From NCBI GenBank assembly GCA_009778485.1, contig WRJQ01000005.1:1-52817 (forward strand): a DNA stretch of 52,817 bases, given 5' to 3'. Each line of letters opens with the position of its first letter. Position 1 is the first letter of the stretch. The DNA comes from Oscillospiraceae bacterium (GTDB lineage: Bacteria > Bacillota > Clostridia > Oscillospirales > Oscillospiraceae). Below, in pieces: positions 3,634 to 52,486 of this stretch. The notes beneath the pieces are model-generated. The model was not told the origin of the DNA. It saw only the letters and a program-made list of their open reading frames with translations, and did no database searches. Made by a program: the position numbers and the translations under genes.

Positions 3634-3678
3634 GAAAACCACTCCTTCCAAATATACCGAATTTACTGAAAAATCTGC

Positions 3679-12475: not shown

Positions 12476-12552
12476 AAAATAATACCTGCCTTTTCTTATT
12501 TTTTCTGTTTGGCACATGAACAGACACTCTGTCTGGCAGCCTCCGTAGGCAC

Positions 12553-25021: not shown

Positions 25022-25183
25022 TGTGTGTTGGCTTGGTGATATTCAGGCTTATCTTACGTTATCTTTTTCCGCCTTACTTCGTTGAAAGTCCTTGAAAGGC
25101 CTGGGGCATTCCTGCGGACTTTCGCCTCGTCAGACGAAAAAATCTACCGCAATCTTAGCCCAAATATCACCAAGCCAACACAC
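25022..25183. repeat. 162-bp palindromic MITE-like element
   Basis: Terminal inverted repeats of 21 bp, TGTGTGTTGGCTTGGTGATATT at one end and its complement at 25163-25183, enclose a second inner inverted repeat (GAAAGTCC / GGACTTTC). Its inner right part contains GACGAAAAAATC, also found in the nested element at 45.4 kb. It has no coding potential. Confidence 0.7.
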
Positions 25184-25285: not shown

Positions 25286-25312
25286 TACTACTAACTACTA
25301 ACTACTAACTAT
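25286..25312 (-). repeat. TTAGTAG heptamer array after URO-D stop
   Basis: Three to four copies of a 7-base unit; on the minus strand it reads TAGTTAGTAGTTAGTAGTTA directly after the TGA stop of the URO-D gene. Confidence 0.8.
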
Positions 25313-26650: not shown

Positions 26651-26756
26651 ACAAGACAGGGGGACGGTTCTCTTGTCTTGCTCGCCAGCCCCCTTCGCTC
26701 GGCGCTGAGCGCCACGCTCCCCCGCAACAAGACAAGAGAACCGTCCCCCTGTCTTG
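26651..26756. repeat. Pair of inverted REP-like repeats
   Basis: Two copies of the repeat at 24948 in opposite orientation (26651-26680 and 26727-26756), followed by a truncated third (TCCCCCTGTCTTGCC at 26761). Together they could fold into a long hairpin, as in BIME-type pairs. The promoter of the following gene starts 33 bases later. Confidence 0.75.
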
Positions 26757-26878: not shown

Positions 26879-28237
26879 GTGCATTGCATCAGAAAAGTTA
26901 CGGAAGACCTCGTATGGGTGGGATCCAACGACCGCAAACTGCTCATGTTCGAAGGCGTATACTCAGTCCCCAAAGGCGTCGCGTACAACTCCTATCTGCT
27001 GCTCGACGAAAAGACCGTGCTGTTTGACACGGTCGACAACGCAGTCAGGAACCGATTTTTCGAGAACCTGGAAGAAGCCCTCGGCGGAAAAACCCTGGAC
27101 TACCTGGTAATCCAACACATGGAACCGGACCATACCTCCGCTATCATAGAACTGGCCGAGAAGCACCCCGGAATGAAAATAGTCTGCAACGCCAAGTCCC
27201 GGGACCTGCTCAAACAATACTTCGACTTTGACATCGAATCGCGCGTGCAGCTTGTAAAAGAAGGCGACACGCTTGAAACAGGGAAGCACGCCCTGAGCTT
27301 CATCATGGCGCCCATGATACACTGGCCCGAAGTAATGATGACCTATGACTCGACGTCGCATATCCTGTACTCGGCGGACGCGTTCGGCTGCTTCGGAGCA
27401 CTCAACGGAGCGCTGTTCGCCGACGAAGTCGACTTCGACAGGGAATACATGGACGAAGCGAGGAGATACTACGCGAACATAGTCGGCAAGTACGGCAACC
27501 AGGTAATGGCGCTGCTGAAAAAAGTATCGTCGCTGCAGATCGATATCATCTGCCCGCTTCACGGCTTCGTGTGGCGCAAGGACATAGACAAAATCATTGA
27601 AAAGCACGCGCTCTGGGCATTGTGCGCCCCCGAAGAGCGCGGCGTGATGATTGCATACGCGTCCGTCTACGGGAACACAGAGAACGCGGCGGAAATACTA
27701 TCATGCAAATTGCAGGAAGCCGGCGTGAGGACAGCCATGTACGACGTCTCGGTCACGATGCAGTCTGAGATTGTCGCCGCGGCTTTCAAGTGGAGCCACA
27801 TAGTATTCGCCTCAACGACATACAACGCGGGCATCTTTGTGACAATGGAAGCCGTGATTAACGACATAACCGCGCACAACCTCCGCAACCGGACCGTCGG
27901 GATAATTGAAAACGGCTCATGGGCGCCAACCAGCGGCGGGCTTATCCGCGAAAGCCTCGAGAAATGCGAAAACATCTGCTTCCTGGATAAGAAAGTCACG
28001 CTGAAATCATCTTTGAAAAAGGAGCAGCTAGCCGAGATCGAAGCAATGGCCGAGGCGCTGATTGCGACATTGCAGACCGAAGAAGCGGGAACAGCCCCGC
28101 AGCCGCAAACGCAGCCCGAGGAGAAAAAAGGCTTCGTATGCTCGATATGCGGCTACGAATATGAAGGCGAGACGCTGCCGGAAGACTTTATCTGCCCGCT
28201 GTGCAAAAACGACGCCTCCGTGTTCGAACCGATGTAG
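26879..28237 (+). CDS. Flavodiiron-type protein with fused rubredoxin (FprA/NorV-like)
   Basis: About 452 residues from a GTG start. The N-terminal metallo-beta-lactamase-like diiron domain has H80-x-E82-x-D84-H85 (HMEPDH), a later His in MIHWPE, Asp in SADAFG and His in CPLHGF. A flavodoxin domain starts near 255 (IAYASVYGNTENAA). A C-terminal rubredoxin (about 417-452) has C421-x2-C424 and C439-x2-C442. The family reduces O2 or NO to harmless products. The start is awkward: GGAGGAGGTGG ends 28 bases upstream with a small CGGGC/GCCCG stem between. It is 6 bp upstream of kamA, suggesting protection of oxygen-sensitive radical enzymes (inference). Confidence 0.9.
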   Translation: MHCIRKVTEDLVWVGSNDRKLLMFEGVYSVPKGVAYNSYLLLDEKTVLFDTVDNAVRNRFFENLEEALGGKTLDYLVIQHMEPDHTSAIIELAEKHPGMKIVCNAKSRDLLKQYFDFDIESRVQLVKEGDTLETGKHALSFIMAPMIHWPEVMMTYDSTSHILYSADAFGCFGALNGALFADEVDFDREYMDEARRYYANIVGKYGNQVMALLKKVSSLQIDIICPLHGFVWRKDIDKIIEKHALWALCAPEERGVMIAYASVYGNTENAAEILSCKLQEAGVRTAMYDVSVTMQSEIVAAAFKWSHIVFASTTYNAGIFVTMEAVINDITAHNLRNRTVGIIENGSWAPTSGGLIRESLEKCENICFLDKKVTLKSSLKKEQLAEIEAMAEALIATLQTEEAGTAPQPQTQPEEKKGFVCSICGYEYEGETLPEDFICPLCKNDASVFEPM

Positions 28238-28243
28238 CGTACG

Positions 28244-29425
28244 ATGAGCATAGAAACGATGTTCCCGGGAGTATCCAAAACCGACTGGGACAACTGGGAG
28301 TGGCAACTGCAAAATAGAATCGAAACAGCGGCCGGGCTGAAGAAGTACATACCGCTGACAGAAGAAGAAGAGACAGGAGTCACCGCGTGCCTGAAAACGA
28401 TAAGGATGGCGATAACGCCCTATTACCTCTCTCTCATTGACACAACAGACTCATTCGACCCGATCCGGAAGCAGGCAATACCGACCGCAAAGGAACTAAA
28501 CCTAACAATAGGCGACTTGGCCGACCCTCTGTGCGAGGAAGCGGACTCCCCGGTGCCGGGGCTAACTCACCGCTATCCGGACAGGGTTCTGCTCCTGGTT
28601 ACAGACAGATGCGCAACGTATTGCCGCCACTGCTCGAGACGCCGTTTCGCCGGTCAGACCGACAGCACTCTTCCGATGGAGCAGATAGAGCACGCCACCG
28701 CGTATATAGCCGAGCATCCGCAGATCAGGGATGTCCTGATCAGCGGGGGAGACCCGCTGATAATGGGTGACGGCGCTCTGGAAGAGATACTTAGAAGAAT
28801 AAGAGCCATCCCGACGGTCGAAATCATCAGGATCGGTACGCGCGCGCCCGTGGTAATCCCGCAAAGGATAACGCCGGAGCTTACAGCGATGCTGAAAAAA
28901 TACAACCCGCTATGGGTCAACACGCAGTTCAACCACCCCCGCGAGATAACAACTGAGTCGGCAGCCGCCTGCGCGATGATAGCCGACGCCGGGCTACCGC
29001 TCAGCAATCAGAGCGTATTGCTCGCCGGGGTAAACGACTGCCCGCATGTGATGCGTGAGCTTGTGCAAAAGCTCCTTGTAAACAGGGTCAGGCCATACTA
29101 TCTGTACCAGTGCGACATGTCGCTGGGGCTTGAGCATTTCAGAACTCCTGTATCCAAAGGCATTGAAATAATCGAATCCCTCAGAGGGCATACGTCCGGC
29201 CTTGCCGTCCCGACATTTGTGGTTGACGCGCCCGGCGGCGGAGGAAAGATCCCGGTCATGCCAAACTACCTAATATCCCAGTCGCCGCAAAGCGTCGTGC
29301 TAAGAAATTACGAAGGCAATGTCTACACATACCCGCAACCGGCCGGCTACGAAAAAGCATGCCACTGCGAGACGTGCCTCGGGAAGAAGAAAAGCCCGCT
29401 CAAGGGCGTTGCGGGACTGCTTTAG
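28244..29425 (+). CDS. kamA: Lysine 2,3-aminomutase (radical SAM, PLP)
   Basis: A 393-residue radical SAM enzyme interconverting L-lysine and L-beta-lysine. The 4Fe-4S motif is C123-x3-C127-x2-C130 (CATYCRHC). The PLP lysine is K335 in DAPGGGGKIP. Two aspartates that bind the lysine side-chain amine in the clostridial enzyme (D293, D330 there) match D291 (YQCDMS) and D328 (VVDAPGG), with a constant offset of two that also fits K337/K335. Glutamate 2,3-aminomutases have Lys and Asn there, so lysine is the likely substrate. It is 6 bp after the flavodiiron gene and 25 bp before the first oxidoreductase. The beta-lysine acetyltransferase partner and the full lysine fermentation set are absent. 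Confidence 0.9.
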   Translation: MSIETMFPGVSKTDWDNWEWQLQNRIETAAGLKKYIPLTEEEETGVTACLKTIRMAITPYYLSLIDTTDSFDPIRKQAIPTAKELNLTIGDLADPLCEEADSPVPGLTHRYPDRVLLLVTDRCATYCRHCSRRRFAGQTDSTLPMEQIEHATAYIAEHPQIRDVLISGGDPLIMGDGALEEILRRIRAIPTVEIIRIGTRAPVVIPQRITPELTAMLKKYNPLWVNTQFNHPREITTESAAACAMIADAGLPLSNQSVLLAGVNDCPHVMRELVQKLLVNRVRPYYLYQCDMSLGLEHFRTPVSKGIEIIESLRGHTSGLAVPTFVVDAPGGGGKIPVMPNYLISQSPQSVVLRNYEGNVYTYPQPAGYEKACHCETCLGKKKSPLKGVAGLL

Positions 29426-29450
29426 TAATCACGACAGAAAGGAGCCATAT

Positions 29451-31433
29451 ATGATCAACAATTTCCCGAACCTGTTTAAACCCATCAAACTGGGCGGCGT
29501 CCTGTTCCGCAACAGGATATTCTCAGCCCCCACAGGCCTGTACAACTACATCCCACTCGGGACGCCGACGCCCGACTTCATAGCCTACTTCGAACGCAAA
29601 GCGAAAGGCGGCGCCGCATCCGTGAACATAGGCGAATGCTACGTCGACGACGAAGGCATACCCCGCAGCAGGGGCTTCATCATGCTCGACGACCACGAGA
29701 CCGCCCGCCTCGGGCTCGGCAAACTTGCCGACGGCATTACGAGGCACGGAGCCATAGCCACCGTCGAACTCAACAAACGCGGAATGGTCGGTACGCCAAA
29801 CAAGGACGGCCATATAATCGGCCCGAGCGAACGAGAGCTCAACGCGCTCGAGTGGAACGACAACGTCGGAACGAGCCACGCCATGAGCGAGGAGCAGATA
29901 CTCGCCAGCGTGGAAGCCTTCGTCAGCGCGGCCGAGTTCGCAAAAAGCTGCGGCTACGGCATGGCGATGGTGCACGCGGGCCATGGCTGGCTGCTGCACC
30001 AGTTCCTCTCCCCGACGATAAATAAACGCACCGACCGCTGGGGAGGCAACCCCGAAAACAGGGCGCGGATCGTAGTAATGATCTGCGACGAAATACACAA
30101 AAGATGCGGCGCCGGGTACCCCGTGGAAGTGCGCATGAGCGCGGCGGAAGAAGGCTGGGAAGGCGGCTACGGGATCGAAGAAGGCGTCGAAATAGCCAAA
30201 CAGCTCGACGGGCACGCGGACCTCATACACGTCTCCGTCGGCAATATATTCGTGCCGGCGTCGATGGGCGTCACCCACCCCGGCATCTTCAGCGACGAAG
30301 GGCGCAACGTGAAATATGCCGCCGAGATAAGAAAACACGTCAAGACCCCTGTGGCGACCATCGGAGCGCTCTCGGATCCCTATGTGCTTGAAGAGATCAT
30401 AGCCACCGGAAAAGCCGACATCGTAGAAATGGCGCGCGGCCTTATATGCGACCCCGACCTGCCGATCAAGGCGCGCGAAGGGCGCGAAAAGGAGCAATAC
30501 CGCTGCATGCGCTGCTTCTACTGCGTAGGTGTGAACTACGCCTACGGCCACCTCGTCTGCGCGCTCAACCCCGAGTCCGGCAGGGAATGGGAGCAGGACT
30601 CCGCGCTGCCCCCGGGCAAGAAACAAAAAGTGCTCATAGCCGGAGGCGGCATCGCGGGGATGCAGACCGCGATCACAGCCTCGCAGCTAGGCCACGAAGT
30701 CGTACTGTGCGAAAAGACGGGCAAGCTTGGCGGCCCGATAATGTGCGAGAAGGACGTACCGTTCAAGAAACGGCTGTCCGAATATGTGGACAGGCAGATA
30801 TATATGCTTGCGAAGACGGGCGTGGAAATCCGCCTCAACACGGAAGTCACTCCCGAATACGCCGCGCTTCTCAACCCCGACGCCATCGTCGCTGCCGTGG
30901 GCTCGCGGCCGTTTATCCCGCCGATCCCGGGCGCCGAAGCGAAAAACGTAGTCAGCGCCGAAGAAGCCTTCTCCGACCCCGGCTGCGTCGGCTCAGCAGC
31001 AGTTATCCTCGGCGCCGGACTGACCGGTGCGGAGCTCGGGCTGTACCTGAACTCCCTGGGGAAAAAGGTTCAGCTCATAGAAATGCGCGACGACATATAC
31101 GCCGAGCACAGCGCCGGCACGTACAAAGCCGCGCTCAGGGACGCCGGAGTCGCCGTACACTTCAATACGAAAGCTTTGGAGATTACCGAAACCGGAGTTA
31201 GGTGCGAGCAGGCAGGAAACGAAGCGGGCGGCGAAGCAGGCGGCGGCGATACATTCTACGAATGCGATACCGTCATACTGGCCGCAGGCCGCTTGCCGCT
31301 GCACGAGACAGTCGAAGCCTTGTCAGACTGCGCGCCGAGATTCTACTACATCGGCGACTGCCGCACCCCGAGGATAATAGCCGCCGCGACAGGAGAAGCA
31401 TGGACGACCGCAAGGCACATAGGGAGATATTAG
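29451..31433 (+). CDS. FMN/4Fe-4S/FAD oxidoreductase (2,4-dienoyl-CoA reductase / enoate reductase family), paralog 1
   Basis: A 660-residue modular flavoenzyme: an Old-Yellow-Enzyme barrel (about 1-345) with HAGHGWLLHQFLSP and RTDRWGG, a 4Fe-4S site C352-x2-C355-x2-C358-x11-C370, an FAD site LIAGGGIAGMQTA and an NAD(P)H site VILGAGLTGAELG. The family reduces activated C=C bonds, for example in enoates, bile-acid intermediates and isoflavones. The start at 29451 has GAAAGGAG upstream; the frame is open earlier but overlaps kamA. A Gly/Ala/Glu-rich insert lies near 585-600. Its tandem paralog at 31568 suggests two sequential reductions or different substrates (inference). A simple dienoyl-CoA role is unlikely without beta-oxidation genes. 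Confidence 0.92.
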   Translation: MINNFPNLFKPIKLGGVLFRNRIFSAPTGLYNYIPLGTPTPDFIAYFERKAKGGAASVNIGECYVDDEGIPRSRGFIMLDDHETARLGLGKLADGITRHGAIATVELNKRGMVGTPNKDGHIIGPSERELNALEWNDNVGTSHAMSEEQILASVEAFVSAAEFAKSCGYGMAMVHAGHGWLLHQFLSPTINKRTDRWGGNPENRARIVVMICDEIHKRCGAGYPVEVRMSAAEEGWEGGYGIEEGVEIAKQLDGHADLIHVSVGNIFVPASMGVTHPGIFSDEGRNVKYAAEIRKHVKTPVATIGALSDPYVLEEIIATGKADIVEMARGLICDPDLPIKAREGREKEQYRCMRCFYCVGVNYAYGHLVCALNPESGREWEQDSALPPGKKQKVLIAGGGIAGMQTAITASQLGHEVVLCEKTGKLGGPIMCEKDVPFKKRLSEYVDRQIYMLAKTGVEIRLNTEVTPEYAALLNPDAIVAAVGSRPFIPPIPGAEAKNVVSAEEAFSDPGCVGSAAVILGAGLTGAELGLYLNSLGKKVQLIEMRDDIYAEHSAGTYKAALRDAGVAVHFNTKALEITETGVRCEQAGNEAGGEAGGGDTFYECDTVILAAGRLPLHETVEALSDCAPRFYYIGDCRTPRIIAAATGEAWTTARHIGRY

Positions 31434-31450
31434 CGTGATAAATCACGCTA
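31431..31450. promoter_or_regulatory. 20-bp palindrome at the oxidoreductase stop codon
   Basis: TAGCGTGATAAATCACGCTA: perfect 9-base arms around AA, starting with the stop codon itself. No T-run follows, so it is either an operator-like site or an mRNA-processing hairpin, not a classical terminator. Confidence 0.5.
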
Positions 31451-31498
31451 ACCGAGGAATGTGCCAATCGCTCCCCCTGCGGGGAATCGCGAGTTGAT

Positions 31499-31564
31499 GC
31501 ACAAAAAGTCCATTCCTTATCATGGACGATTTGTGCCTGAAGTGAAACGAAAGGAATGGACTTT
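31499..31564 (+). promoter_or_regulatory. Two mutually exclusive hairpins covering the ribosome site of the next gene
   Basis: Hairpin A pairs GCACAAA (31499-31505) with TTTGTGC (31530-31536) and GTCCA (31508-31512) with TGGAC (31523-31527). Hairpin B pairs 31505-31518 (AAAGTCCATTCCTT) with 31551-31564 (AAGGAATGGACTTT), perfect over 14 bp. Both use bases 31505-31512, so they cannot coexist; B buries the AAGGA site of the downstream gene. This is a candidate translational switch (inference). Confidence 0.5.
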
Positions 31565-31567
31565 GAT

Positions 31568-33541
31568 ATGAACAAATACTACCCTCATCTGTTCAGCCCG
31601 CTGAAATTCGGGAACCTTGTCAGCAGGAATCGAATATTCGCCGCCCCGTACGGCGGCGTGGCGACGCCCGAAGGCTCGATAACGCCTGAAGGCACAAACC
31701 GCTTCGAGGAAGTCGCCAGAGGAGGCGTAGGCCTCGTGTGCATCGGCGAAACGCTTGTGCACAATGAAACGGGCAACAACCACGGGCGGGTGCTGCGCCT
31801 TGACCACGGCGGCGTAATACCCTCATTCCTGCGCTGCACCGACGGAATCCACCGCCAGGGCGCGCTTGCGTCGATAGAGCTTATACACCCCGGCAACCAC
31901 GCCAGCCCGGAGTACACGCCCGATGGAAAAGTCTACGGCCCCTCCGGAGGCATCATCCACGACCCGGACGGCGATTTCGAGATCACGGAGATGGACGAAG
32001 CGATGATCGCCGTCATAGTGAATGCCTTCGGCGACGCCGCCGAAAGAGCGATGTTCAGCGGCTTCGACATGGTCACGGTACAAGCAGCGCACGGCTGGCT
32101 GCTCAGCCAGTTCCTTTCGCCGCTATCGAACCGCCGCACCGACCGCTTCGGCGGCCCGATAGAAAACCGCGCCAGGTTCCACGTCATGGTAGCCGAGAAT
32201 ATAAGGCAAAAATGCGGAGACGCGCTGGCGATTGACTTCCGCCTCAGCGGGAGCGACTTCATCGAAGGCGCATCGACGCTTGAAGACGTAGTCGAAGTGT
32301 GCAAAATGCTTGACGGCAAAGTCGATATGCTGCACATATCGGCAGCCAACTTCGACGACAAACGAGCGGGCATACGCATGTTCCCGACCATGTTCTACGA
32401 GCGCGGCTGCAACGCCTTCCTCGCCGAAGAAATCAAAAAGCACGTCTGCGTCCCCGTCGTGACCGTCGGGGGCTTCAACGACCCAGAGCAGATGGAAAAA
32501 TACATAGCCGAAGGACGCGTCGACGCTATAGCCCTCAACCGCGCGCTGCTGGCGGATCGCTTCATGCCGGAAAAGGCGCGGCTCGGCCTCGCGGACGACA
32601 TCATGTACTGCACCCGCTGCAACGACTGCATCAGCTCCACGTACGGCAAACGCCCCACGGCGATAGCGTACTGCTCCGTCAACCCCTTCTACGGCATGAA
32701 CGACCGTGAGTATAATAAAATCGTGAGAAAAGGCAGCCAGAAAGTGCTGGTTGTCGGAGCCGGCCCCGCCGGGATGGAAGCCGCGCTCGGCGCCGCAGAA
32801 TGCGGGCACGACGTCGTACTGGCGGAAAAAACCGGCAGTTTTGGCGGCATGCTCAAGAACGCCTGGCACCCGGAGTTCAAAAAGGACATCAAACGCTTCG
32901 TCGAAGTTCTGACCCGCCGCATTGAAAAAGCCGCCAACATCAAAGTCGAGCTCAACACGACCGTCACGCCGGAGTACATAGAAGCCATGGCGCCAGACTC
33001 CGTGATAATCGCCATCGGCGCAGCGCCGGCCGTGCCGGACATCCCCGGCATCGACAGACCCAACGTCATCCTCTCGTCTGAGATACACACGAAAGGCCTG
33101 GGGCACAAAGTCGTATTCATCGGCGGCGGCCTGATCGGAGGCGAGGAAGGGATCGACGCAGCGAAGTACCACGGCAAGGACGTCACAATTATCGAGCTGA
33201 CAGGCGAAATCGCCGCAAGCGCGACGCACCTGCACAGGCTCACCATACTCAGCGAATCCGAAAAACTGCCGAACCTGCGCGTGCTCACCCTGACGCAATG
33301 CCTCTCCATAGACGAAGGCGGAGTCACCGTGAGAGATAAAGACGGCAAAGAATCGTACATAGAAGCCGACACAATCGTGCTTTCTGCGGGCATGAAGCCA
33401 CTCAGCGAGGAAGCCTGGAAACTGTACGGCATCGGCGGACAGACGATTATTACCGGCGACTGCGCCAAACCCGCCCGCATGAACGAAGCGGTGCGCTACG
33501 GCTGGTTCGCCGGATTCAACCTGCAAAAACTTGAACAATAA
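31568..33541 (+). CDS. FMN/4Fe-4S/FAD oxidoreductase (2,4-dienoyl-CoA reductase / enoate reductase family), paralog 2
   Basis: A 657-residue paralog of the gene before it, with the same modules: barrel motifs QAAHGWLLSQFLSP and RTDRFGG, 4Fe-4S cysteines C348, C351, C354 and C369, FAD site VVGAGPAGMEAA and NAD(P)H site FIGGGLIGGEEG. The spacing to the fourth Cys is 14 residues here against 11 in paralog 1. The second ATG (31568) is chosen because AAGGA touches the first ATG at 31556 directly and the N-terminus MNKYYPHLFSPLKFG then aligns with paralog 1. The 134-bp gap to paralog 1 holds a palindrome and a two-state hairpin, so expression of the two may be uncoupled. Confidence 0.92.
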   Translation: MNKYYPHLFSPLKFGNLVSRNRIFAAPYGGVATPEGSITPEGTNRFEEVARGGVGLVCIGETLVHNETGNNHGRVLRLDHGGVIPSFLRCTDGIHRQGALASIELIHPGNHASPEYTPDGKVYGPSGGIIHDPDGDFEITEMDEAMIAVIVNAFGDAAERAMFSGFDMVTVQAAHGWLLSQFLSPLSNRRTDRFGGPIENRARFHVMVAENIRQKCGDALAIDFRLSGSDFIEGASTLEDVVEVCKMLDGKVDMLHISAANFDDKRAGIRMFPTMFYERGCNAFLAEEIKKHVCVPVVTVGGFNDPEQMEKYIAEGRVDAIALNRALLADRFMPEKARLGLADDIMYCTRCNDCISSTYGKRPTAIAYCSVNPFYGMNDREYNKIVRKGSQKVLVVGAGPAGMEAALGAAECGHDVVLAEKTGSFGGMLKNAWHPEFKKDIKRFVEVLTRRIEKAANIKVELNTTVTPEYIEAMAPDSVIIAIGAAPAVPDIPGIDRPNVILSSEIHTKGLGHKVVFIGGGLIGGEEGIDAAKYHGKDVTIIELTGEIAASATHLHRLTILSESEKLPNLRVLTLTQCLSIDEGGVTVRDKDGKESYIEADTIVLSAGMKPLSEEAWKLYGIGGQTIITGDCAKPARMNEAVRYGWFAGFNLQKLEQ

Positions 33542-33557
33542 AAAAGGAGCCTACACT

Positions 33558-35360
33558 ATGTTCTTCACAAACTTCAACACCATGACCCCGGAAGAAATCG
33601 ACGCGAAAGTCAAAGCGAACCCGAAAGCCGCAGGCCCGGACGAAACCTGCGCATGCCTCGCCGGCGGAACGCTTAAACTGAAACTCGAAGGCGAATATGC
33701 CCCGGAGCAACTGGACTACGAGTTCAAGGACGAAGCGACGCTGAGCTTCACGGAAAACGGCCAAACCCACGAAGCGCCATACACAGTCGACTGCCTCGGA
33801 CGCATCGCCCTTATCACGCACCTTGTACCGGGGACGACCCGGGGCTGGCACATCGTGTACGACTCGGAAACGCAGCTCGTCACAGTCTTTGAAACCTGGT
33901 TCGGCATAACCGTGCTCGTAGGCATGGACCTCGGCGGAGAGCGCGAACCGACCGGCATGCGCGAAATCTACCGCGAAATCCAGCGCCAGTACTACTTCGG
34001 CTACAACGACATAGGGCAAGGCGCGCCCGAAAAACTGCACACGACGACCAACCGCCTCGAAGGGCGCGGAATGCACTGGCTCTTCGGCAGCGGCAGCGAA
34101 ATCCTGACATACTTCCCATCCGTAGTATGCTCAACGACAGTCTCGCTAGACGAGCCCGAAGACACGCTCACAGTAACATACCCATCGGACTACATACGCA
34201 TAGACGACGAGTATTACATCTTCGCAAAATGGGGAGTTGAGTTCGGCGGCGAAATGCACCTGCACGTGCTGAACCTGCTGGACATGGAAGCGATAGGCTT
34301 CGAGTTCGGGTTCAACGAAGCAGACGAACTCGTATATGAATTCTGCGAAGCGTGGCTGACAGTCACGGGCGATATAGCGCACCTCGAAACCATAACCCTC
34401 AACGGCGACAAAGCACCGCCGATGGCAATGCTCAGGCCGGGCAAAGGCGCGCGCTACGGATACCGCCCGCGAGACATCGACGTCCCGATGACCAACGAAG
34501 AAGCGCTCGAAGCCGCAAAAACGCAGCAGATATTCGAGTTCGGAGGTCCGAACATAATGATGAGCAGGAACACCCTCGAATTCAAGTATGACCTCGTCGG
34601 GAAGCAATTCTCGCTATCATACGACCACGTCCGCACGCCCTACGCCTGGTCCGCGGCCAACACACCGGAAAAACTGATCCAGGAGTACGAGTACGACTTC
34701 ATCTCGGAAGAAACGCTCAAATGGCGCGAGCGGGGCGGCGACTGGCATGAGGAGAAGTACGTCTGCTTCGAACCCGCCAGGGATATATGGTTCTTCATGC
34801 ACATGCTGACAGGCGACCCCGACCACGCGAGCATAGCGCACGCAGTCGACTTCTCGAACGGGCTGACGACAGGCGTGTACGGCCGCATCGGAAGTTGGCG
34901 CAGCGGCTGGGAGATCGGCGCCACCGTACTCTTCGGGACAGCCGCCGGCGAAAGCATAGCCCCCGCGCCATTCTCCAAGCGCCATGACTTCACGACCGAC
35001 CTCGTCGGCAAAGCTTACGCCTGGGCATATTCGGAGACGATGAGCAGCATCCACGTATACAGCTCGCCCGACAGCTATAGCTGGACGATATTCCAGGGCG
35101 ACAACTCCGGCGGCGCGACATGGAGCAGCCCCGGCTTCTACATCAAGCTCCGCGAAGACGCCTATCTCTTCCAGTGGGTCGAAGAAAACTGCAACGGAAG
35201 CCAGGGGCTCGTCTGCATCAACCCGCAGATAATGCACGACGGCGGCTTCTTCTTCGGAGTGAGCCACAACGGCCTGCGCCTGAACATCACCGGAGCCTAC
35301 GCGCGCAGCCTAGGAACATTCAACGTCAACCCCTACTTCGACGACAAGGGGAATCTATGA
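33558..35360 (+). CDS. Four-repeat lipocalin-like / MoaF-like protein
   Basis: A 600-residue protein built of four beta-rich units of about 120-140 residues. Units 1 and 3 share a pattern (THLVPGTTRGWHIVYDSETQ; MHMLTGDPDHASIAHAVDFS), and so do units 2 and 4 (YYIFAKWGVEFGGEMHLHVL; AYLFQWVEENCNGSQGLVCI), so a two-unit module has been duplicated. The pattern resembles MoaF and phenolic-acid-decarboxylase lipocalin folds (LVGK..., W.E). I infer a small-molecule binding or lyase fold; despite the MoaF name nothing points to molybdenum cofactor. AAAGGAG precedes the ATG at 33558. It is 16 bp after oxidoreductase 2 and upstream of the glycyl radical enzymes, so a pathway role is likely. No catalytic site is evident. 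Confidence 0.7.
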   Translation: MFFTNFNTMTPEEIDAKVKANPKAAGPDETCACLAGGTLKLKLEGEYAPEQLDYEFKDEATLSFTENGQTHEAPYTVDCLGRIALITHLVPGTTRGWHIVYDSETQLVTVFETWFGITVLVGMDLGGEREPTGMREIYREIQRQYYFGYNDIGQGAPEKLHTTTNRLEGRGMHWLFGSGSEILTYFPSVVCSTTVSLDEPEDTLTVTYPSDYIRIDDEYYIFAKWGVEFGGEMHLHVLNLLDMEAIGFEFGFNEADELVYEFCEAWLTVTGDIAHLETITLNGDKAPPMAMLRPGKGARYGYRPRDIDVPMTNEEALEAAKTQQIFEFGGPNIMMSRNTLEFKYDLVGKQFSLSYDHVRTPYAWSAANTPEKLIQEYEYDFISEETLKWRERGGDWHEEKYVCFEPARDIWFFMHMLTGDPDHASIAHAVDFSNGLTTGVYGRIGSWRSGWEIGATVLFGTAAGESIAPAPFSKRHDFTTDLVGKAYAWAYSETMSSIHVYSSPDSYSWTIFQGDNSGGATWSSPGFYIKLREDAYLFQWVEENCNGSQGLVCINPQIMHDGGFFFGVSHNGLRLNITGAYARSLGTFNVNPYFDDKGNL

Positions 35361-35364
35361 CAAC

Positions 35365-35493
35365 TGTCCAGTGTGGTGTCCGAAAACTGTTTTTTGAAGC
35401 GCTAATGAAGCAGGAGGCGGTAGCCACTGCACATATAACCTACTCAATTCACAGATAGCTTCAAAAAAAGTTTTCCGGACATCATACTGGACA
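35365..35493. mobile_element. 129-bp MITE-like element
   Basis: Terminal inverted repeats of 36 bases with a few mismatches (TGTCCAGTGTGGTGTCCG... and its complement), five bases after the MoaF-like stop codon. The core is the same as in the longer element at 45292-45584. It has no coding capacity and no clear target duplication. Confidence 0.7.
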
Positions 35494-35507
35494 GCACAAA
35501 CACGAAC

Positions 35508-35536
35508 TGTACAACCGGAAGAAGTTGAGTTATACT
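35508..35536 (+). promoter_or_regulatory. Possible promoter for the glycyl radical enzyme genes
   Basis: TGTACA at 35508-35513, a 17-base spacer, and TATACT at 35531-35536, 35 bases before the start of the first glycyl radical enzyme. It begins just beyond the MITE-like element, so the GRE genes may have their own promoter. Confidence 0.4.
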
Positions 35537-35570
35537 AAAGAAAAGTACAAAAACAGGGGGATACACAGAT

Positions 35571-38066
35571 ATGGCACAAACATTCCAATTCGCGCCCGTG
35601 ACCGACAGAATCGCGAAAATGCGGGACATGCGCGACGCCTTCACGCAAGGCGAACTCATCACCATCAACACAGAACGCACAAAACTATACACAGACTACT
35701 ACAGAGACCACCCCAACGAACACCCGCTCCTCAAACGCTCAGGCGCCGTGCAGTACTGGGCCGAAAACCACGAAGCGAACGTCTTTGACGACGACATCAT
35801 CGTAGGCACGCCCGGCCCCGACGAACGCAGCCTCGGCGTCTACGTAGACAACAGCCCCGAATGGATACTCGGCGTCATCGACGAAGCCACATTCAAAAAA
35901 GCCTGGCAATCCGAAGGCGCGATCCGCATGAGCGACGAACAGAGGGACATCCTGGCCGACGCCTACGAAGTCTGGAAAAACATCAGCGTCAGCAAAATGT
36001 TCGAAGGCGCCGTCACCGAAGACTTCTTCCCCGCGTTCGGCACAGGCCCCGTCATGAACTACATGCAAGGCCGTGCAGGCAGGCCGAACGTATTCGGCAT
36101 GATCCAGGGGCACTACGTAGCGAACTTCCGCAAAGCCGTCAACACCGGCTTCGGCGAAGTCAAACGCCAGGCGCAGGAAAAAATCGACGAACACAAAGGC
36201 AAAGTGTTCGGAGACTGGGCGAAAAAACACGTCTTCTACCACGCAGTCGTCAGAACCTGCGACGCGGCGATTACGCTCTCGAACAACTACGCGAAATCCT
36301 GCCGCGAAAAAGCAGCGGCGACGAAAGACGAAAAGCGCAAAGCGGAACTGCTCGACATGGCGGACTCGCTCGAATGGATCATGGACAAACCGGCCCGAAC
36401 CTACCGCGAAGGCCTGCAAGTCCTTATCCTCTACCAGCTCCTGCTGACGGCGGACTGCCAGCAGCACGGCCAGTCGATGGGCCGCGTGGACAAATACGTA
36501 GGCCACCTGCTGGAAAAAGACATAGCCGAAGGCAGGCTGACCATGGACGAAGCGCAGGAACTCACGGACGCCTTCCTGCTGCGAATATGCGACATCATGA
36601 TCGTCCACGGCATGATGCTCAACAACAAACGCGTCATTGAACTCAACGAAAACGGCATGAACGCCTTCATGGCGATATACATGGGAATGACCGCCACAGG
36701 CGGGATAGTCCTGACGATCGGAGGCTCCACGCCCGACGGCGAGGACGACTGCAACGACGTGACCCGCCTGATGCTCCAGGCATACGGCAGGATGAAAGTG
36801 CCGGACCCGACCGTCGCGCTGCGCATCCATTCAAAAACTCCCGAAGATATATGGCGGCTCGGCATCGAATGCAGCAAGCTCTGCGGAGGCATGCCGGAAC
36901 TCCTCAACGACGCGGTCGTGATCCCCTCGATGATGTCCTGGGGATTCACGCACGAGGACGCCGCAGACTACAGCATCGTCGGCTGCGTGGAACCCGGCGG
37001 CACCGGCAACGAATGGTCGGCATCGGGCAACGACGGCGGCAACTCCATCTGGAACATGATGGAAGCGATAACTCTGCTTATTAACGGCGGCGTCTCCCCC
37101 AGGACGGGCAAGACCGCTGTCGAAGTGCCGAAGCTGTATGAATACGAAAGCTTCGAGCAAGTTAAAGAAGCATTCGTAAAACTCGTAGAATACTGCATGG
37201 ACTGGACAGTCTCATTCACGTCCATCTATGAACTTGCCTACTCGCAGAACTTCCCGTGCATAGTCGCATCCACGATGATGGAAGGCTGCATGGAGTCCGG
37301 CAAGGACGTCACCGAAGGCGGAGCTAAGTACAACAGGACCGGCCTCACAGCCTGCGGCACCTCGAACGTCGGCGACAGCCTCATGGCAATCAAGAAACTC
37401 TGCTTCGACGACAAGACCGTCTCCCTGCGCACCCTGTACGACGCCCTGCAAGCGAACTGGGAAGGCTACGAGGAACTGCGCCAGACAGTCATCAACGAAG
37501 TCCCGCATTACGGCAACGATCTGGAAGAAGTCGACGGCCTCTCCTCATGGGCTCTGGAAGTTTTCGCCGACAGCATCGGCTCGAAATACGGGCCGAGGGG
37601 CCGCTACTGCGGAGGGACATTCACGATGACGGCGCACATCAGGTTCGGCGAAATGATCGGCGCGACGCCTGACGGGCGCAAAGCCGGCGAGCCGATAGCG
37701 GACGCGATCTCCCCACGCCAGGGCTTCGACAAGAATGGCCCGACGGCATATCTGCGCTCCGCCGCGAAGCTGCCGCACCTCAAGCTCGCCAACGGCGACC
37801 AGCTCAACATCCGCTTCACGCCATCCTCCGTCGCCGGCGACGAAGGCGCGATGAAGCTGAAGAACCTCATATCAACGTACTTCCGCCTCGGAGGGATGCA
37901 AGTGCAGTTTAACGTCGTCGGCACGGACAAACTATACGAAGCGCAAAAAGACCCGCTGAACAATAAGGATCTCATTGTCCGCATAGCGGGCTTCTCGACC
38001 TACTTCGTAACCCTGTCGGAGGACGTGCAAAACGACTTCATCACAAGAACCGAACAGGCGATGTGA
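35571..38066 (+). CDS. Glycyl radical enzyme 1 (GCVE type)
   Basis: An 831-residue glycyl radical enzyme. The thiyl-radical Cys472 is in IVGCVEPGG with Glu474 two residues on, the C-x-E arrangement of dehydratase, lyase and decarboxylase types (choline lyase, glycerol/propanediol dehydratase, HypD, HPAD), not the CC pair of pyruvate formate-lyase. The glycyl radical is G807 in VRIAGFSTYF, 24 residues from the end. Late motifs such as GATPDGRKAGEPIADAISP are standard. GGGGGA precedes the ATG. It clusters with a second GRE and one activase. No shell proteins, alcohol/aldehyde dehydrogenase or trimethylamine genes are present, so the substrate is open; dehydration, C-C, C-N or decarboxylation chemistry are all possible. 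Confidence 0.93.
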   Translation: MAQTFQFAPVTDRIAKMRDMRDAFTQGELITINTERTKLYTDYYRDHPNEHPLLKRSGAVQYWAENHEANVFDDDIIVGTPGPDERSLGVYVDNSPEWILGVIDEATFKKAWQSEGAIRMSDEQRDILADAYEVWKNISVSKMFEGAVTEDFFPAFGTGPVMNYMQGRAGRPNVFGMIQGHYVANFRKAVNTGFGEVKRQAQEKIDEHKGKVFGDWAKKHVFYHAVVRTCDAAITLSNNYAKSCREKAAATKDEKRKAELLDMADSLEWIMDKPARTYREGLQVLILYQLLLTADCQQHGQSMGRVDKYVGHLLEKDIAEGRLTMDEAQELTDAFLLRICDIMIVHGMMLNNKRVIELNENGMNAFMAIYMGMTATGGIVLTIGGSTPDGEDDCNDVTRLMLQAYGRMKVPDPTVALRIHSKTPEDIWRLGIECSKLCGGMPELLNDAVVIPSMMSWGFTHEDAADYSIVGCVEPGGTGNEWSASGNDGGNSIWNMMEAITLLINGGVSPRTGKTAVEVPKLYEYESFEQVKEAFVKLVEYCMDWTVSFTSIYELAYSQNFPCIVASTMMEGCMESGKDVTEGGAKYNRTGLTACGTSNVGDSLMAIKKLCFDDKTVSLRTLYDALQANWEGYEELRQTVINEVPHYGNDLEEVDGLSSWALEVFADSIGSKYGPRGRYCGGTFTMTAHIRFGEMIGATPDGRKAGEPIADAISPRQGFDKNGPTAYLRSAAKLPHLKLANGDQLNIRFTPSSVAGDEGAMKLKNLISTYFRLGGMQVQFNVVGTDKLYEAQKDPLNNKDLIVRIAGFSTYFVTLSEDVQNDFITRTEQAM

Positions 38067-38076
38067 CGTCTATTTC

Positions 38077-38104
38077 TAGTTAGTAGTTAGTAGTTAGTTA
38101 GTAG
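38077..38104 (+). repeat. TTAGTAG heptamer array after GRE 1
   Basis: Four 7-base units (TAGTTAGTAGTTAGTAGTTA...) ten bases after the GRE 1 stop, in the sense direction, ending just before the GAGGAGG site of GRE 2. Confidence 0.8.
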
Positions 38105-38125
38105 CGACGACGAGGAGGCATATCA

Positions 38126-40564
38126 ATGTACCAGTTTAGACCGTACACAGAAAGAATTTGGAAAATGCGCGAGCGCATCCGCGACAGAGTGATCAGGGCG
38201 AGCCCTGACAAACTGCGCCTGAGGCTCGAAGCCGCCGAAAAGTACGAAGGCATCGTGCCGCTGATACAACGCCCGATGCAATCGCTCCATGTCATCACGA
38301 ACATGCCAATCAGGATTGAAGACGACGACTACTTCGTCGGAAACCTCGGCAACAAGTACTTCAACGGCAGCAGCGGCATGATGTGGCTGATGGCGAACAT
38401 CGAGAAAGACTGGCCTATGAAAGAAGACGGCCTGTACCACAGCCCCGACCACTTCGAGCTGCGCCTTGCAGTCTCGCCGGAAGACCTGAAAGAACTGCGC
38501 GAACTCGCCGTCGGCATGAGGCGTGGCGGAGGGATGTTCGGACGCGGCGAATGGCTGCCGGACAACGCCGGGCAGTTCATCGAACTCGGCGCCAGCGACT
38601 ACGGCATACCGGGCCGGCCCGGCGCTCTGACCCCTCCCGGGCACCTGACGCCCGGATTCCAGCATATCATAAGAAAAGGCTACGGCGCCATACGCAAGCA
38701 GGCGCAGGACTGGATGGACGAGCGCGAAGGCAACCTGATGAACGACGACATGCGCAAGTACATGTTCTACAAAGCCGCGACGATAGCCTGCGACGGAGCC
38801 ATCACGCTGACAAGCCGCTACGCCGAGATGGCGGCGGAAAAAGCTAAAGAAGCTGAGACGCCTGAGCGCAAAGCGGAACTCGAAAAAATGGCTGCATCGC
38901 TCGAGTGGATTTCGACGAACCCGGCGCGGACATTCTGGGAAGCCTGCCAGATGGCTCTGCTCTATCAGCTCTTCCTCGTGGTGGACAATGGCCCGGGCGT
39001 GACCGCTATGGGGCGCTTCGACCAGTACACATGGCCATTCCTGAAAAAGGAACTTGAAGAAGGCTCGATAACCCTCGACGGTGCGCAGGAACTTGTCGAC
39101 GCGTTCTTCCTTAAGCTGAACACATACTACGAAGGCGGCTTCGGGAAAATGGCACAGACTGCCGGCATCGGCAACACCTACCAGCACACGACGATAGGCG
39201 GCTGCCTGCCCGAAACCGGCGAAGACGCGACGAACCCAATAACCTACATGACGCTCGAGACAATAGCGCGCCTCAAGCTGCACGATCCGACGATCTCGCT
39301 TAGAGTTCACAAGAACTCACCAGATGAGATATGGAACTGCGCCCTCGCGACCTCAAAGATGGTCGGCGGCCTGCCGCTGTTCCAGAATGACGATATAATT
39401 ATCCCGGGACTCATGAAAGAACTCGGGTTCACCCTTGAGGACGCGCGCGACTTCAGCCTCATAGGCTGCCAGGAAATCGTCGGCTCCGGCAACGACTACC
39501 CCGCGCCGAACGGAATGGGCATGACCCACGCCGCGCTGTACTGGGCTGTTATCATGGACATGGCGATCAACGACGGGATAAACCCGCTCAGCGGCAAGCA
39601 GGCTCCGGAACACGTGCGCAGCGGGCATCTGTACGACATGAACTCCATCGAGGAAGTCCGCGACGCTTTTGAAAAGCTGGCGACGTGGCTGCTGAAGTGG
39701 TACGTGACGATCAACAACTATGCCGAGTACCAGCAGGAGCAGCACTTCCCCTTCCCGAACCTGTCCATATCCACGGAAGGCTGCATGGAAAAGGGCATGG
39801 ACGTCTCCGTAGGCGGAGCGAAATACAACTCCTACGGCGGGACGGCGACAGGCCTCGCGACCGTCGCGGACAGCATTACGACTATCAAGTACATGTGCTT
39901 CGACAAGAAGCTGTGCACGACACGCGAGCTGTATGATGCCGTCATGGCGAACTGGGAAGGCTACGAGCCCCTGCGCCAGCAGATAATTTCGGAAGTCCCG
40001 CACTACGGCAACGCCGACCCCTACGCTGATATGGAACTCAAGTGGGTCATCGACCTTTACTACCGCCTGTGTTCCGAGTGCTCGAACCAGCGCTGCAGCG
40101 TCTATAAAGCGGGCATGTACGGCGCAGCCGACCATGTCCAGCAGGGCGAAGTCACCTGGGCGACGCCGGACGGGCGCCGGACGGGCGAGCCTATCGCCGA
40201 CGCGATGAGCCCGGCACAGGCGAGGGACGTCAACGGGCCGACCGCTGTGTTCCTGTCGACCTGCTGCTTCGACCATACGAAGTTCATGGACGGCATGGCG
40301 CTCAACCTGCGCATGCACCCCTCGGTGCTCGCTAACGACGGCGGCGTCGAAAAGCTGCGCGAGATGACGAAGACCTACTTCGAAAACGGCGGCATGGAAT
40401 GCCAGTATAACGTCGTCGATACCGACACGCTGCGCGCCGCCCAGGCTGACCCGGGCGCGCACCACAACCTCGTCGTGAGGATAGCAGGCTACTCGGCATA
40501 CTTCGTCGAGCTGGGCACCGACCTGCAAAACGACATCATAGCCAGAAACGAAAATATGATATAA
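38126..40564 (+). CDS. Glycyl radical enzyme 2 (GCQE type)
   Basis: An 812-residue glycyl radical enzyme clearly diverged from GRE 1. The thiyl Cys448 is in LIGCQEIVGSG with Glu450. The glycyl radical is G788 in VRIAGYSAYF, 24 residues from the C-terminus. Other family segments: STEGCMEKGMDVSVGGAKYN and WATPDGRRTGEPIADAMSP. The residue between Cys and Glu is Gln, not Val, and the following segment (NDYPAPNGMGM) differs from GRE 1, so the substrate pocket should differ. GAGGAGG precedes the ATG. It lies 59 bp after GRE 1 and 32 bp before the activase. It could act on a different substrate or form a hetero-complex with GRE 1 (both inference). Confidence 0.93.
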   Translation: MYQFRPYTERIWKMRERIRDRVIRASPDKLRLRLEAAEKYEGIVPLIQRPMQSLHVITNMPIRIEDDDYFVGNLGNKYFNGSSGMMWLMANIEKDWPMKEDGLYHSPDHFELRLAVSPEDLKELRELAVGMRRGGGMFGRGEWLPDNAGQFIELGASDYGIPGRPGALTPPGHLTPGFQHIIRKGYGAIRKQAQDWMDEREGNLMNDDMRKYMFYKAATIACDGAITLTSRYAEMAAEKAKEAETPERKAELEKMAASLEWISTNPARTFWEACQMALLYQLFLVVDNGPGVTAMGRFDQYTWPFLKKELEEGSITLDGAQELVDAFFLKLNTYYEGGFGKMAQTAGIGNTYQHTTIGGCLPETGEDATNPITYMTLETIARLKLHDPTISLRVHKNSPDEIWNCALATSKMVGGLPLFQNDDIIIPGLMKELGFTLEDARDFSLIGCQEIVGSGNDYPAPNGMGMTHAALYWAVIMDMAINDGINPLSGKQAPEHVRSGHLYDMNSIEEVRDAFEKLATWLLKWYVTINNYAEYQQEQHFPFPNLSISTEGCMEKGMDVSVGGAKYNSYGGTATGLATVADSITTIKYMCFDKKLCTTRELYDAVMANWEGYEPLRQQIISEVPHYGNADPYADMELKWVIDLYYRLCSECSNQRCSVYKAGMYGAADHVQQGEVTWATPDGRRTGEPIADAMSPAQARDVNGPTAVFLSTCCFDHTKFMDGMALNLRMHPSVLANDGGVEKLREMTKTYFENGGMECQYNVVDTDTLRAAQADPGAHHNLVVRIAGYSAYFVELGTDLQNDIIARNENMI

Positions 40565-40586
40565 CTAGTTAGATAATAGTTAGTAG
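40565..40586 (+). repeat. Heptamer array after GRE 2
   Basis: CTAGTTAGATAATAGTTAGT then AG, a degenerate three-unit array starting at the base after the TAA stop of GRE 2 and ending ten bases before the activase start. Confidence 0.7.
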
Positions 40587-40596
40587 AGAGAGCAGT

Positions 40597-41547
40597 ATGC
40601 AGCAGTTGACAGGAAAAATCTACGACATCCAGGGCTTCAGCGTCCAGGACGGGCCGGGCGTGCGCACGACAGTCTTCCTCAAAGGCTGCCCGCTGCGCTG
40701 CCCTTGGTGCCACAGCCCAGAATCCCGCCGCTTCGACACGGAGCTCAACTGGATGCACATCCGCTGCACAGGCCTCGACGCCTGCGGGAAATGCCTCGGC
40801 GTATGCCCCCGCAACTGCATAACGCGCGGCGAGCCCACCAGGGGCGTGACCGGCGAGGAGATAAGCTACCCGGCGGTTGACAAGACGGACTGCGACGAAT
40901 GCGGGCTGTGCGCAAAAGCCTGCAAAGCTACTGCGCTATATATGTGCGGCGACGACAAGACCGTGGACGAAGTCATGCACAGGATTGAGCGCGACATGCC
41001 GTTTTACGAGGACTCCGGCGGCGGCGTAACCGTATCGGGAGGGGAGTGCCTCTCCCAGCCCGCCTTCACGCTGGAACTGCTGAAACGTTGCAAAACCCTC
41101 AGCGTCAATACGGCAGTCGACACCACGGGCTTTGTCCGCTGGGAAACTATAGAGAAGGTCATGCCGTACGCGGACTTGTTCCTGTACGACCTCAAGTGCA
41201 TGGACGAAGCCTTGCACGAGCGGGTGATTGGCGTCCCCGGCGGCCTGATACTGGAAAACGCTGTGAAGATCGCGGAGGCGGGCGGCTCGCTCTGGGTGCG
41301 CATACCGGTAATGCCGATGTTTAACGACTCGGAGGAACATTTTGAGAAATACGCGGCTTTCCTCTCCGGGATAAAAGACTCAATCGTGATGGTGCAGCTC
41401 CTGCCCTATCACAAAATGGGCGTGTCAAAGTACGCCCGCCTGCTTACACGCGAGCAAGTCTTCGTCGCCGAACCGCCGACCGATGAGCTCATGGAAGCCC
41501 GGAAGCAGCAACTCGAAGCAGCCGGCCTGCCTGTAAGAATACACTAA
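40597..41547 (+). CDS. Glycyl radical enzyme activating enzyme (radical SAM)
   Basis: A 316-residue radical SAM activase that abstracts the glycine hydrogen to arm the glycyl radical enzymes. The SAM-cluster cysteines are C31-x3-C35-x2-C38 (GCPLRCPWCHSPES). A ferredoxin-like insert with two extra 4Fe-4S sites follows (CTGLDACGKCLGVCPRNC and CDECGLCAKACKA), as in activases of non-PFL glycyl radical enzymes. GGGVTVSGGE binds SAM. The ribosome site is weak (AGAGAGAG) and lies beside the heptamer repeat. As it is the only activase seen, it probably serves both GREs. The operon ends at the hairpin at 41573. Confidence 0.93.
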   Translation: MQQLTGKIYDIQGFSVQDGPGVRTTVFLKGCPLRCPWCHSPESRRFDTELNWMHIRCTGLDACGKCLGVCPRNCITRGEPTRGVTGEEISYPAVDKTDCDECGLCAKACKATALYMCGDDKTVDEVMHRIERDMPFYEDSGGGVTVSGGECLSQPAFTLELLKRCKTLSVNTAVDTTGFVRWETIEKVMPYADLFLYDLKCMDEALHERVIGVPGGLILENAVKIAEAGGSLWVRIPVMPMFNDSEEHFEKYAAFLSGIKDSIVMVQLLPYHKMGVSKYARLLTREQVFVAEPPTDELMEARKQQLEAAGLPVRIH

Positions 41548-45584: not shown

Positions 45585-45590
45585 GTAAGA

Positions 45591-51390: not shown

Positions 51391-51438
51391 CAACTACTAA
51401 CTGTTAACTACTAACTACTAACTCCTAACTACTAACTA
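51391..51438 (-). repeat. Long TTAGTAG heptamer array at URO-D stop
   Basis: About seven 7-base units, with occasional substitutions, running from inside the stop codon of the URO-D gene (the TAG is the first unit) into the gap. It reads in the sense direction of that gene. The rest of the gap 51272-51431 shows no gene. Confidence 0.85.
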
Positions 51439-52403: not shown

Positions 52404-52486
52404 GATAACGCCTCCTTTGTAGATCAAAATGATTGTAGTAGCATTGTAGCACATAAGAAGGAGTAATAGAAGAGCGAATTCAGGAG

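Follow-up and report, generated by a model that had tools for sequence, protein, structure and literature searches.

Recurrence of a glycyl radical enzyme, activase and enoate reductase core with URO-D neighbors around a redox gene island of an Oscillospiraceae bacterium

We analyzed a 52,817-nucleotide stretch of DNA from an Oscillospiraceae bacterium (positions 1 to 52,817 of contig WRJQ01000005.1, assembly GCA_009778485.1; hereinafter the window), which is contig C5 of a metagenome-assembled genome (MAG) estimated to be 64.5% complete. Eight plus-strand genes of the window (26879-41547), separated by gaps of 6, 25, 122, 16, 210, 59 and 32 bp, encode, in this order, a flavodiiron protein (FDP), a lysine 2,3-aminomutase (KAM), two enoate-reductase-type flavoenzymes (ER1 and ER2), a tandem-MoaF protein (MoaF2), two glycyl radical enzymes (GREs), GRE1 and GRE2, and a GRE activase (ACT). 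The GRE-activase-enoate reductase core of this island, along with neighboring genes of the URO-D superfamily, recurs in other genomes beyond the expectation from gene densities, and GRE1 and GRE2 represent two unnamed, heavily duplicated GRE clades. The island is real, yet it is not the single nine-gene pathway suggested by the original prediction, which was made from the sequence alone. That prediction correctly gave the coordinates of the island, the family names and the three radical enzymes (KAM, GRE1 and GRE2, with ACT as an additional radical S-adenosylmethionine (SAM) protein); its nine genes are eight, as they also are in its own list, and the four minus-strand URO-D-family genes and the inverted repeats of the window are absent from it.

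To assess the recurrence, 84,980 species genomes were scanned with an alignment of 14 GRE1 orthologs, which gave 283 confirmed loci; the 80 best of these were retained. Neighbors were counted at 54 GRE1-clade loci besides the window, that is, 54 of the 55 loci with at least 58% identity; the locus left out, L075 from Alkalibaculum, carries an activase (67% identity) beside GRE1 and a URO-D gene (50%) 3.5 kb off, so that its inclusion would raise both counts. Neighbor families were defined by BlastP at 1e-6 against the window proteins, a procedure that misses distant members, and the loci were also collapsed at 80% GRE1 identity into 22 clusters. Background densities come from Pfam matches (196 URO-D, 201 enoate reductase and 158 GRE genes in 27.6 Mb, hand-summed with rounded sizes) in the 12 GRE1-bearing genomes of a set of 17. 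An activase ortholog (at least 60% identity) lies within 600 bp of GRE1 at 26 of the 54 loci (10 of the 22 clusters). The commonest partner after the activase is URO-D, which the original prediction did not include: such genes occur within 5 kb of GRE1 at 16 loci compared to 2.8 expected, a number reached by none of 200,000 simulations, and in 7 clusters compared to 1.3 expected (p = 2e-4). Enoate reductases of any type were detected within 10 kb at 11 loci (4.5 expected, p = 0.004) and in 8 clusters (2.3 expected, p = 0.001), and those of the ER1 type at 8 loci (2.1 expected). A GRE2 ortholog stands in tandem with GRE1, within 600 bp, at four loci (L059, L094, L095 and L111; two clusters) from Oscillospiraceae, an uncultured Clostridia bacterium and Peptococcaceae. 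The co-occurrence that the original prediction expected of a single pathway thus holds for the activase, the enoate reductases and the GRE tandem, holds weakly for MoaF, found within 10 kb of GRE1 at 4 of the 54 loci and in one cluster, and fails for KAM and FDP, which were detected by BlastP at none of the 54.

Clustering of the neighbor proteins without any prior list, followed by a check of the cluster identities, ranked the activase, the enoate reductases, other GREs and URO-D first. Within 6 kb of the GRE1 and GRE2 sites, respectively, the activase was found at 26 and 9, enoate reductases at 11 and 11, other GREs at 8 and 14 (one of these, counted in L098, probably represents a fragment of the same gene) and URO-D at 13 and 8. 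The GRE2 sites comprise 49 genes, the window included, drawn from 40 stretches of a GRE2 listing and from loci gathered for other purposes; within 3 kb of these genes, enoate reductases are present at 11 and URO-D at 8. Among 120 genomes of the family, 32 encode GRE1-like proteins (E ≤ 1e-100, paralogs included) and 23 encode GRE2-like proteins (E ≤ 1e-225), both counts including the source MAG. Two other kinds of neighbors were noticed in this survey. Cupin-like proteins are encoded within 3 kb of 4 of the 55 GRE1 and 4 of the 49 GRE2 genes (L018:12172-12636; also L098, L105, L172, L178 and L180). A subunit of a xanthine-dehydrogenase-type molybdenum hydroxylase is encoded beside a GRE in L030 (6570-11708) and L104 (136-5143) and at the same locus as a GRE in L120; the L104 and L120 subunits are 72-73% identical to that of L030, and this might be a second recurrent GRE pairing.

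GRE1 (35571..38066, plus strand) and GRE2 (38126..40564, plus strand) belong to the glycyl radical family by sequence: both match PF02901 (485 and 467 bits, respectively) and PF01228 (97 and 93.5 bits) over the cut-offs, possess the active-site cysteine and the radical glycine, and are encoded near an activase. The catalytic motifs, which for all island proteins were sought as family signatures, are intact, namely, GCVE at 471 (C472/E474) and the glycyl loop RIAGFS at 804 (G807) in GRE1, and the unusual GCQE at 447 (C448/E450) and RIAGYS at 785 (G788) in GRE2. The ACT gene (40597..41547, plus strand), which begins 32 bp past GRE2, encodes a radical-SAM activase that scores 328 bits against the cut-off of 174 for TIGR02494 and retains the CPLRCPWC motif and the ferredoxin-type cysteines. 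The two GREs are 38% identical to each other. In a tree of 85 GREs, built by a quick method from the sequences of the neighborhood loci rather than from characterized enzymes, GRE1 (28 rows) and GRE2 (30 rows) are each separated from all other sequences by a branch with 100% SH-aLRT support. The GRE1 clade is also set apart by identity to GRE1, at least 58.8% within the clade and at most 50% for the next sequences, the exceptions being L115 and L117, two partial genes with 55-56%. Its members share the motif GCVEPxGxGNEWxAxG, with variants, whereas the GRE2 motif is GCQE...GNDY in a place where the aligned solved GREs have CVE or CIE. A GRE1-clade gene in L062 and a gene of the sister group in L107 come from records titled as other phyla (a Spirochaetes MAG and a Coriobacteriales MAG, respectively), an indication of either horizontal transfer or faulty binning, and three GRE2-clade genes stand in tandem in G117:C10:125730-133168.

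Assignment of GRE1 or GRE2 to a single named NCBIfam family was rejected because both fall under the cut-off of every GRE model matched (HypD, CutC, HpfG/HpsG, the indoleacetate and hydroxyphenylacetate decarboxylases, and pyruvate formate-lyase). The best equivalog scores are 459.8 of 1000 for GRE1 (HpfG) and 417.2 of 1100 for GRE2 (HypD), and the broad PFL2-3 subfamily model gives 497.8 and 459.1 bits, respectively, with a cut-off of 678.2. With the characterized Cys-x-Glu GREs (glycerol/propanediol dehydratase, CutC, HypD, HplG and IslA), the two proteins share the PFL-like domain, the glycine loop, the Cys-x-Glu motif and a radical-SAM activase; unlike these, they stay below the NCBIfam cut-offs, carry motifs of their own and come as two GREs per adjacent activase. 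A Cys-x-Glu active site points to chemistry of the dehydratase/decarboxylase type rather than that of pyruvate formate-lyase.

Taken together, the intact motifs and the recurrent neighborhoods are compatible with a tentative reading, to which we give slightly less than an even chance, that the core is a reductive, radical-based catabolic set acting under anoxia on a plant-derived cyclic or phenolic compound. Such a set would consist of two related GREs sharing one activase, two flavoenzymes, a protein of the MoaF type with a binding or lyase role and the neighboring URO-D proteins; its substrate class, reactions and joint expression are what we infer here. ACT would provide GRE1 and GRE2 with their glycyl radical, and the GREs would generate a substrate radical and eliminate a group by C-O or C-C cleavage. 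Because both GREs keep Cys-x-Glu and the pocket histidine of the dehydratase, this cleavage would be of the dehydratase/decarboxylase type. The flavoenzymes would reduce conjugated double bonds in the ring or side chain, and the URO-D proteins would act in methyl transfer or decarboxylation. ER1 (29451..31433, plus strand; PF00724, 184 bits, and PF07992) and ER2 (31556..33541, plus strand; 35% identical to ER1) are Fe-S flavoenzymes of the enoate-reductase/BaiCD type. They resemble the BaiCD-type enoate reductases in the OYE domain, the Fe-S cysteines, which are intact in both, and the pyridine-nucleotide domain, but differ from BaiCD itself in that they score 363 and 351 bits, respectively, against the curated cut-off of 825 and have only the domain family in common with it.

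Several observations weigh against a common catabolic role of this core. Even the activase adjoins GRE1 at 26 of the 54 sites only, and every other partner does so at fewer; an enoate reductase within 600 bp of GRE1 is found in a single cluster of the 22, which is not significant (p = 0.17), and MoaF near GRE1 is likewise confined to one cluster. The URO-D genes of the island lie on the opposite strand and therefore are not part of the same operon, a repeat divides the island ahead of GRE1, and a molybdopterin enzyme resembling AhtL, which bears on the substrate and is described below, neighbors GRE1 at one site of the clade only. Furthermore, the enrichment, calculated against gene densities, may in part mirror a general clustering of accessory catabolic genes.

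The four URO-D genes of the window are all encoded on the minus strand. UROD1 (25312..26547; PF01208, 56.9 bits; NF004889, 39.4 bits, below the cut-off) flanks the FDP end of the island and is divergent from FDP. UROD2 (41627..42667; PF01208, 55 bits) lacks the HxCG motif and has HDDWGS and HHxD motifs that are invariant across 7 aligned rows, and its AlphaFold model has a mean pLDDT (per-residue model confidence) of 84. UROD3 (42767..43888) has HxCGN, as in coenzyme M methyltransferase, scores 19.9 bits under the PF01208 cut-off of 23.9 and yields a weak alignment with 4ay7 (E = 0.11); UROD4 (51432..52454) scores 46.7 bits with PF01208. The same MAG encodes five GREs, and the distance between URO-D and GRE genes is about 25 bp on contig C6, about 65 bp on C32 and about 1,060 bp for UROD2 and GRE2; no URO-D gene was seen on the 3.7-kb contig that carries the fifth GRE. 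The URO-D superfamily includes O-demethylases, according to the available text of PMC10418091. These proteins are similar to the corrinoid methyltransferases of the superfamily (MtaA and O-demethylases) in their superfamily membership and in the HxCG motif kept by the UROD3 and UROD4 types, and differ in that the island encodes no corrinoid protein and the UROD2 type is devoid of the cysteine.

The role of plain corrinoid O-demethylases is weakened by a shortage of corrinoid proteins. None is encoded on the island contig; the two PF02607 proteins of the MAG are on C31 and C2, and its one RACo-type activator is on C16. In 11 of the 12 GRE1-bearing genomes, 0 to 2 PF02607 proteins per genome compare with 10 to 26 URO-D genes, and G092 and G097 have 21 and 13 URO-D genes, respectively, with no corrinoid-protein domain. 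Because corrinoid proteins are so few, most of the URO-D genes cannot own a corrinoid protein of the PF02607 type; in the genomes other than G092 and G097, the URO-D proteins may share one. Against this weakening stand the RACo-type activators, of which there are 0 to 3 per genome (two in G092), and the few URO-D genes located beside corrinoid proteins (e.g., G070:C193 and G059:C49).

The repeats of the window bear on whether the island is one unit. A dispersed MITE-like (miniature inverted-repeat transposable element) repeat with 37-bp arms that are 84% complementary (35364..35494, strand not assigned) lies in the 210 bp that separate MoaF2 from GRE1. Four more partial copies, 81-92% identical, are present in the MAG, on C6, on C21 and in the window at 45302-45349 and 45512-45586, the last two of which may be halves of one copy. 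A perfect inverted repeat with 29-bp arms, also MITE-like (26652..26756, strand not assigned), is located upstream of FDP, and its arm recurs once more, as a single copy, at 24950-24976; another inverted-repeat or MITE-like element occupies 25023-25183. The repeats at 35364-35494 and 26652-26756 look like small mobile elements, which does not by itself prove a recent assembly of the genes. Given the positions of these two repeats, the island may consist of two transcription units. It might even be made up of two unrelated units, FDP-KAM-ER1-ER2-MoaF2 and GRE1-GRE2-ACT, brought side by side through repeats or rearrangement and serving separate substrates under separate regulation. This arrangement, which we consider rather unlikely, would account for the dispersed repeat exactly at the junction, followed by a promoter-like match (35508-35536) ahead of GRE1, and for the lack of KAM and FDP near GRE1 at the 54 other loci. 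The promoter-like match is no more than expected by chance: the promoter and terminator scan gave no excess over shuffled sequences (4 vs 5.5 and 20 vs 21.2, respectively). No match to Rfam and no tRNA gene was found in the window. A short repeat insertion need not interrupt a transcript, and the division into unrelated units fits poorly with the enoate reductases that recur on the GRE side, within 10 kb of GRE1 at 11 of 54 loci and within 3 kb of GRE2 at 11 of 49.

MoaF2 provides evidence on both sides. The protein (33558..35360, plus strand, with an ATG at 33558; PF10703 and PF17409) consists of two fused MoaF-like units, presumably of the lipocalin type, which are 25% identical (E = 1e-4). 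In L091 and L092, two separate MoaF genes (273 and 275 aa) are found beside GRE1 instead of the fusion, and at 5 of the 55 GRE1 sites, the window included, a MoaF gene is no more than 3 kb away, which argues against two unrelated units. In favor of such units, homologs of MoaF2 (49-71% identity) were examined at 7 places in relatives, and at 6 of these no other island gene or URO-D gene was found in the available stretch, several of the 7 being near a contig end; at the seventh, in G020, there is a GRE2 homolog at a distance of 3.7 kb and, farther out, an enoate reductase. These 6 places, together with the single one of the 22 GRE1 clusters that contains MoaF, led us to reject MoaF2 as an obligate partner of the GREs: it is an optional member. 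The literature search on MoaF and lipocalin returned unrelated work only.

The two genes at the beginning of the island are probably local additions or passengers. FDP (26879..28237, plus strand) starts with an uncertain GTG that has no clear ribosome-binding site. The protein shows the ODP beta-lactamase domain, the diiron ligand motifs and the rubredoxin part characteristic of flavodiiron proteins (PF19583, 85.7 bits; C-terminal rubredoxin-like domain PF21349, 34.5 bits; HMEPDH, CPLHG and the rubredoxin-type cysteines intact), whereas the flavodoxin domain (20 of 25 bits) and the flavorubredoxin equivalog PRK11921 (253.5 of 635) are under the cut-offs. KAM (28244..29425, plus strand) exceeds the curated cut-off of TIGR03820 (578.7 vs 525.4 bits) and retains the motifs CATYCRHC, QCDMSLG and VVDAPGGGGK, including the pyridoxal-phosphate lysine and the aspartates of QCD and VVDAP, which we take to be the two substrate-binding residues of lysine 2,3-aminomutase. 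At the GRE1 loci, TblastN searches of the locus DNA, L075 included, extended the BlastP result, with KAM and FDP at none of 55. A shielding of the radical enzymes by FDP has no comparative support.

An amino-acid pathway, in which KAM would make beta-lysine for processing by the flavoenzymes and GREs, would make sense of this curated assignment and of the short distances of 6 and 25 bp between KAM and its neighbors; we consider it very improbable given that KAM was not found at the 54 other GRE1 sites and has a different setting in relatives. A KAM match (E ≤ 1e-80) is present in 7 of 39 other genomes searched, six of which belong to the same genus. In five of these six, a homolog of 3,5-diaminohexanoate dehydrogenase adjoins KAM, and four of the five add a homolog of lysine 5,6-aminomutase, both proteins being named over cut-off in G018; neither homolog was found in the short KAM stretches available from G014, the sixth genome of the genus, and from G038. 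TblastN with the two G018 proteins found neither in the window, which does not conform to a lysine fermentation operon. The absence of both genes from GRE1 loci and the lysine-fermentation setting of KAM were the grounds for rejecting KAM and FDP as pathway members.

The GREs could alternatively be dehydratases of polyols, cyclitols or sugar derivatives in a set that breaks down the sugar moiety of a plant glycoside. The best-scoring solved GRE is glycerol dehydratase (for GRE1, 428 bits, followed by CutC with 378 and HypD with 358), and a histidine that aligns with its pocket histidine is present in both GREs. The window itself encodes MGH1-like glycosidase-type proteins at 2125-3651 and 10703-12517, recognized by Pfam, and a related protein without a Pfam match at 310-2112, along with what we read by eye as a GH3 enzyme (4760-6862) and an FGGY kinase (6904-8382); four relatives of the MGH1-like group flank the GRE2-GRE1-ACT-GRE2 cluster of L059. 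Still, we regard a sugar substrate as quite unlikely: GRE1 has glycine at the position of Ser282 of glycerol dehydratase, the residue corresponding to Asp447 of that enzyme varies within the GRE1 clade, genes of the MGH type occur within 8 kb of just 2 of the 55 GRE1 sites, and URO-D proteins and enoate reductases do not suit sugar breakdown.

Clues to the substrate of the favored catabolic set, all circumstantial, come from the hosts, from Sporobacter and from L066. The record titles of the 54 GRE1 loci include 31 Oscillospiraceae and 2 Sporobacter and mention the guts of sheep, water buffalo and roe deer; other isolate codes among them presumably denote termite-gut samples and digesters. The named isolates with GRE1 next to an activase are Sporobacter termitidis DSM 10068 and Alkalibaculum sporogenes. 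The closest GRE1 (84% identity, L066) has the AhtL-like molybdopterin enzyme (PF21423, 31.2 bits, cut-off 27) at 3.7 kb, an SDR gene at 7.5 kb and enoate reductase genes at 0.1 and 8.6 kb. According to the available text of PMC4585845, and similarly to that of PMC8359953, Sporobacter termitidis grows on methoxylated aromatics alone, and on a limited range of these, with O-demethylation and ring cleavage. Among the conversions offered by the original prediction, the hosts and Sporobacter make that of plant phenolics a plausible one.

The three families are expanded to different extents in the 17 genomes chosen for counting (12 with GRE1 and 5 others), with 0 to 24 GRE, 0 to 26 URO-D and 0 to 30 enoate-reductase-family genes per genome. 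Four genomes of 1.7-2.8 Mb (G092, G095, G059 and G070) encode 16 to 24 GREs each, and any match was found in only 3 of 14 control genomes. In G053, 21-23 GRE-like candidates were initially detected, of which 8 were scored and none exceeded the GRE1 or GRE2 thresholds, so that this genome possibly represents a lineage rich in GREs of a different type. A bolder proposal, which we consider unlikely, is that GRE, URO-D and enoate reductase genes form a modular, repeatedly duplicated kit in the Oscillospiraceae of termite and ruminant guts, each copy being tuned to a different plant compound. GRE1 and GRE2 would then catalyze a radical cleavage new for GREs, for example, of an ether, methoxy group or side chain of lignin- or polyphenol-derived rings, and the URO-D proteins would mostly act without a corrinoid protein.

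Among known systems, the phloroglucinol cluster of Clostridium scatologenes (PMC10470551, available text) is similar with respect to anaerobic polyphenol breakdown, and genes of the BKACE and 3-hydroxyacyl-CoA-dehydrogenase types are also found near the MoaF2 homolog in G014; unlike the present set, that cluster is described in a main text that contains the word 'glycyl' 0 times, and no gene of the cluster was recognized in the window. In the literature search, which left most subscription papers outside its coverage, no paper on a set of GRE, URO-D and enoate reductase was found judging by titles and the beginnings of abstracts. The individual enzyme types are known, and within the reach of this search neither their combination nor the two GRE clades have been described. 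Eggerthella and Gordonibacter reportedly possess a lineage-specific expansion of one class of anaerobic metalloenzymes, the catechol dehydroxylases, for many phenolics; unlike these expansions, the one described here involves glycyl radical and not molybdenum chemistry. To our knowledge, the enzymes that degrade lignin- and polyphenol-derived rings under strictly anaerobic conditions in the guts of termites and ruminants are poorly understood. The recurrent set of GRE, activase, enoate reductase and URO-D in the lineage of the cultured Sporobacter termitidis constitutes a concrete list of candidate genes and flags two heavily duplicated GRE clades that await a name.

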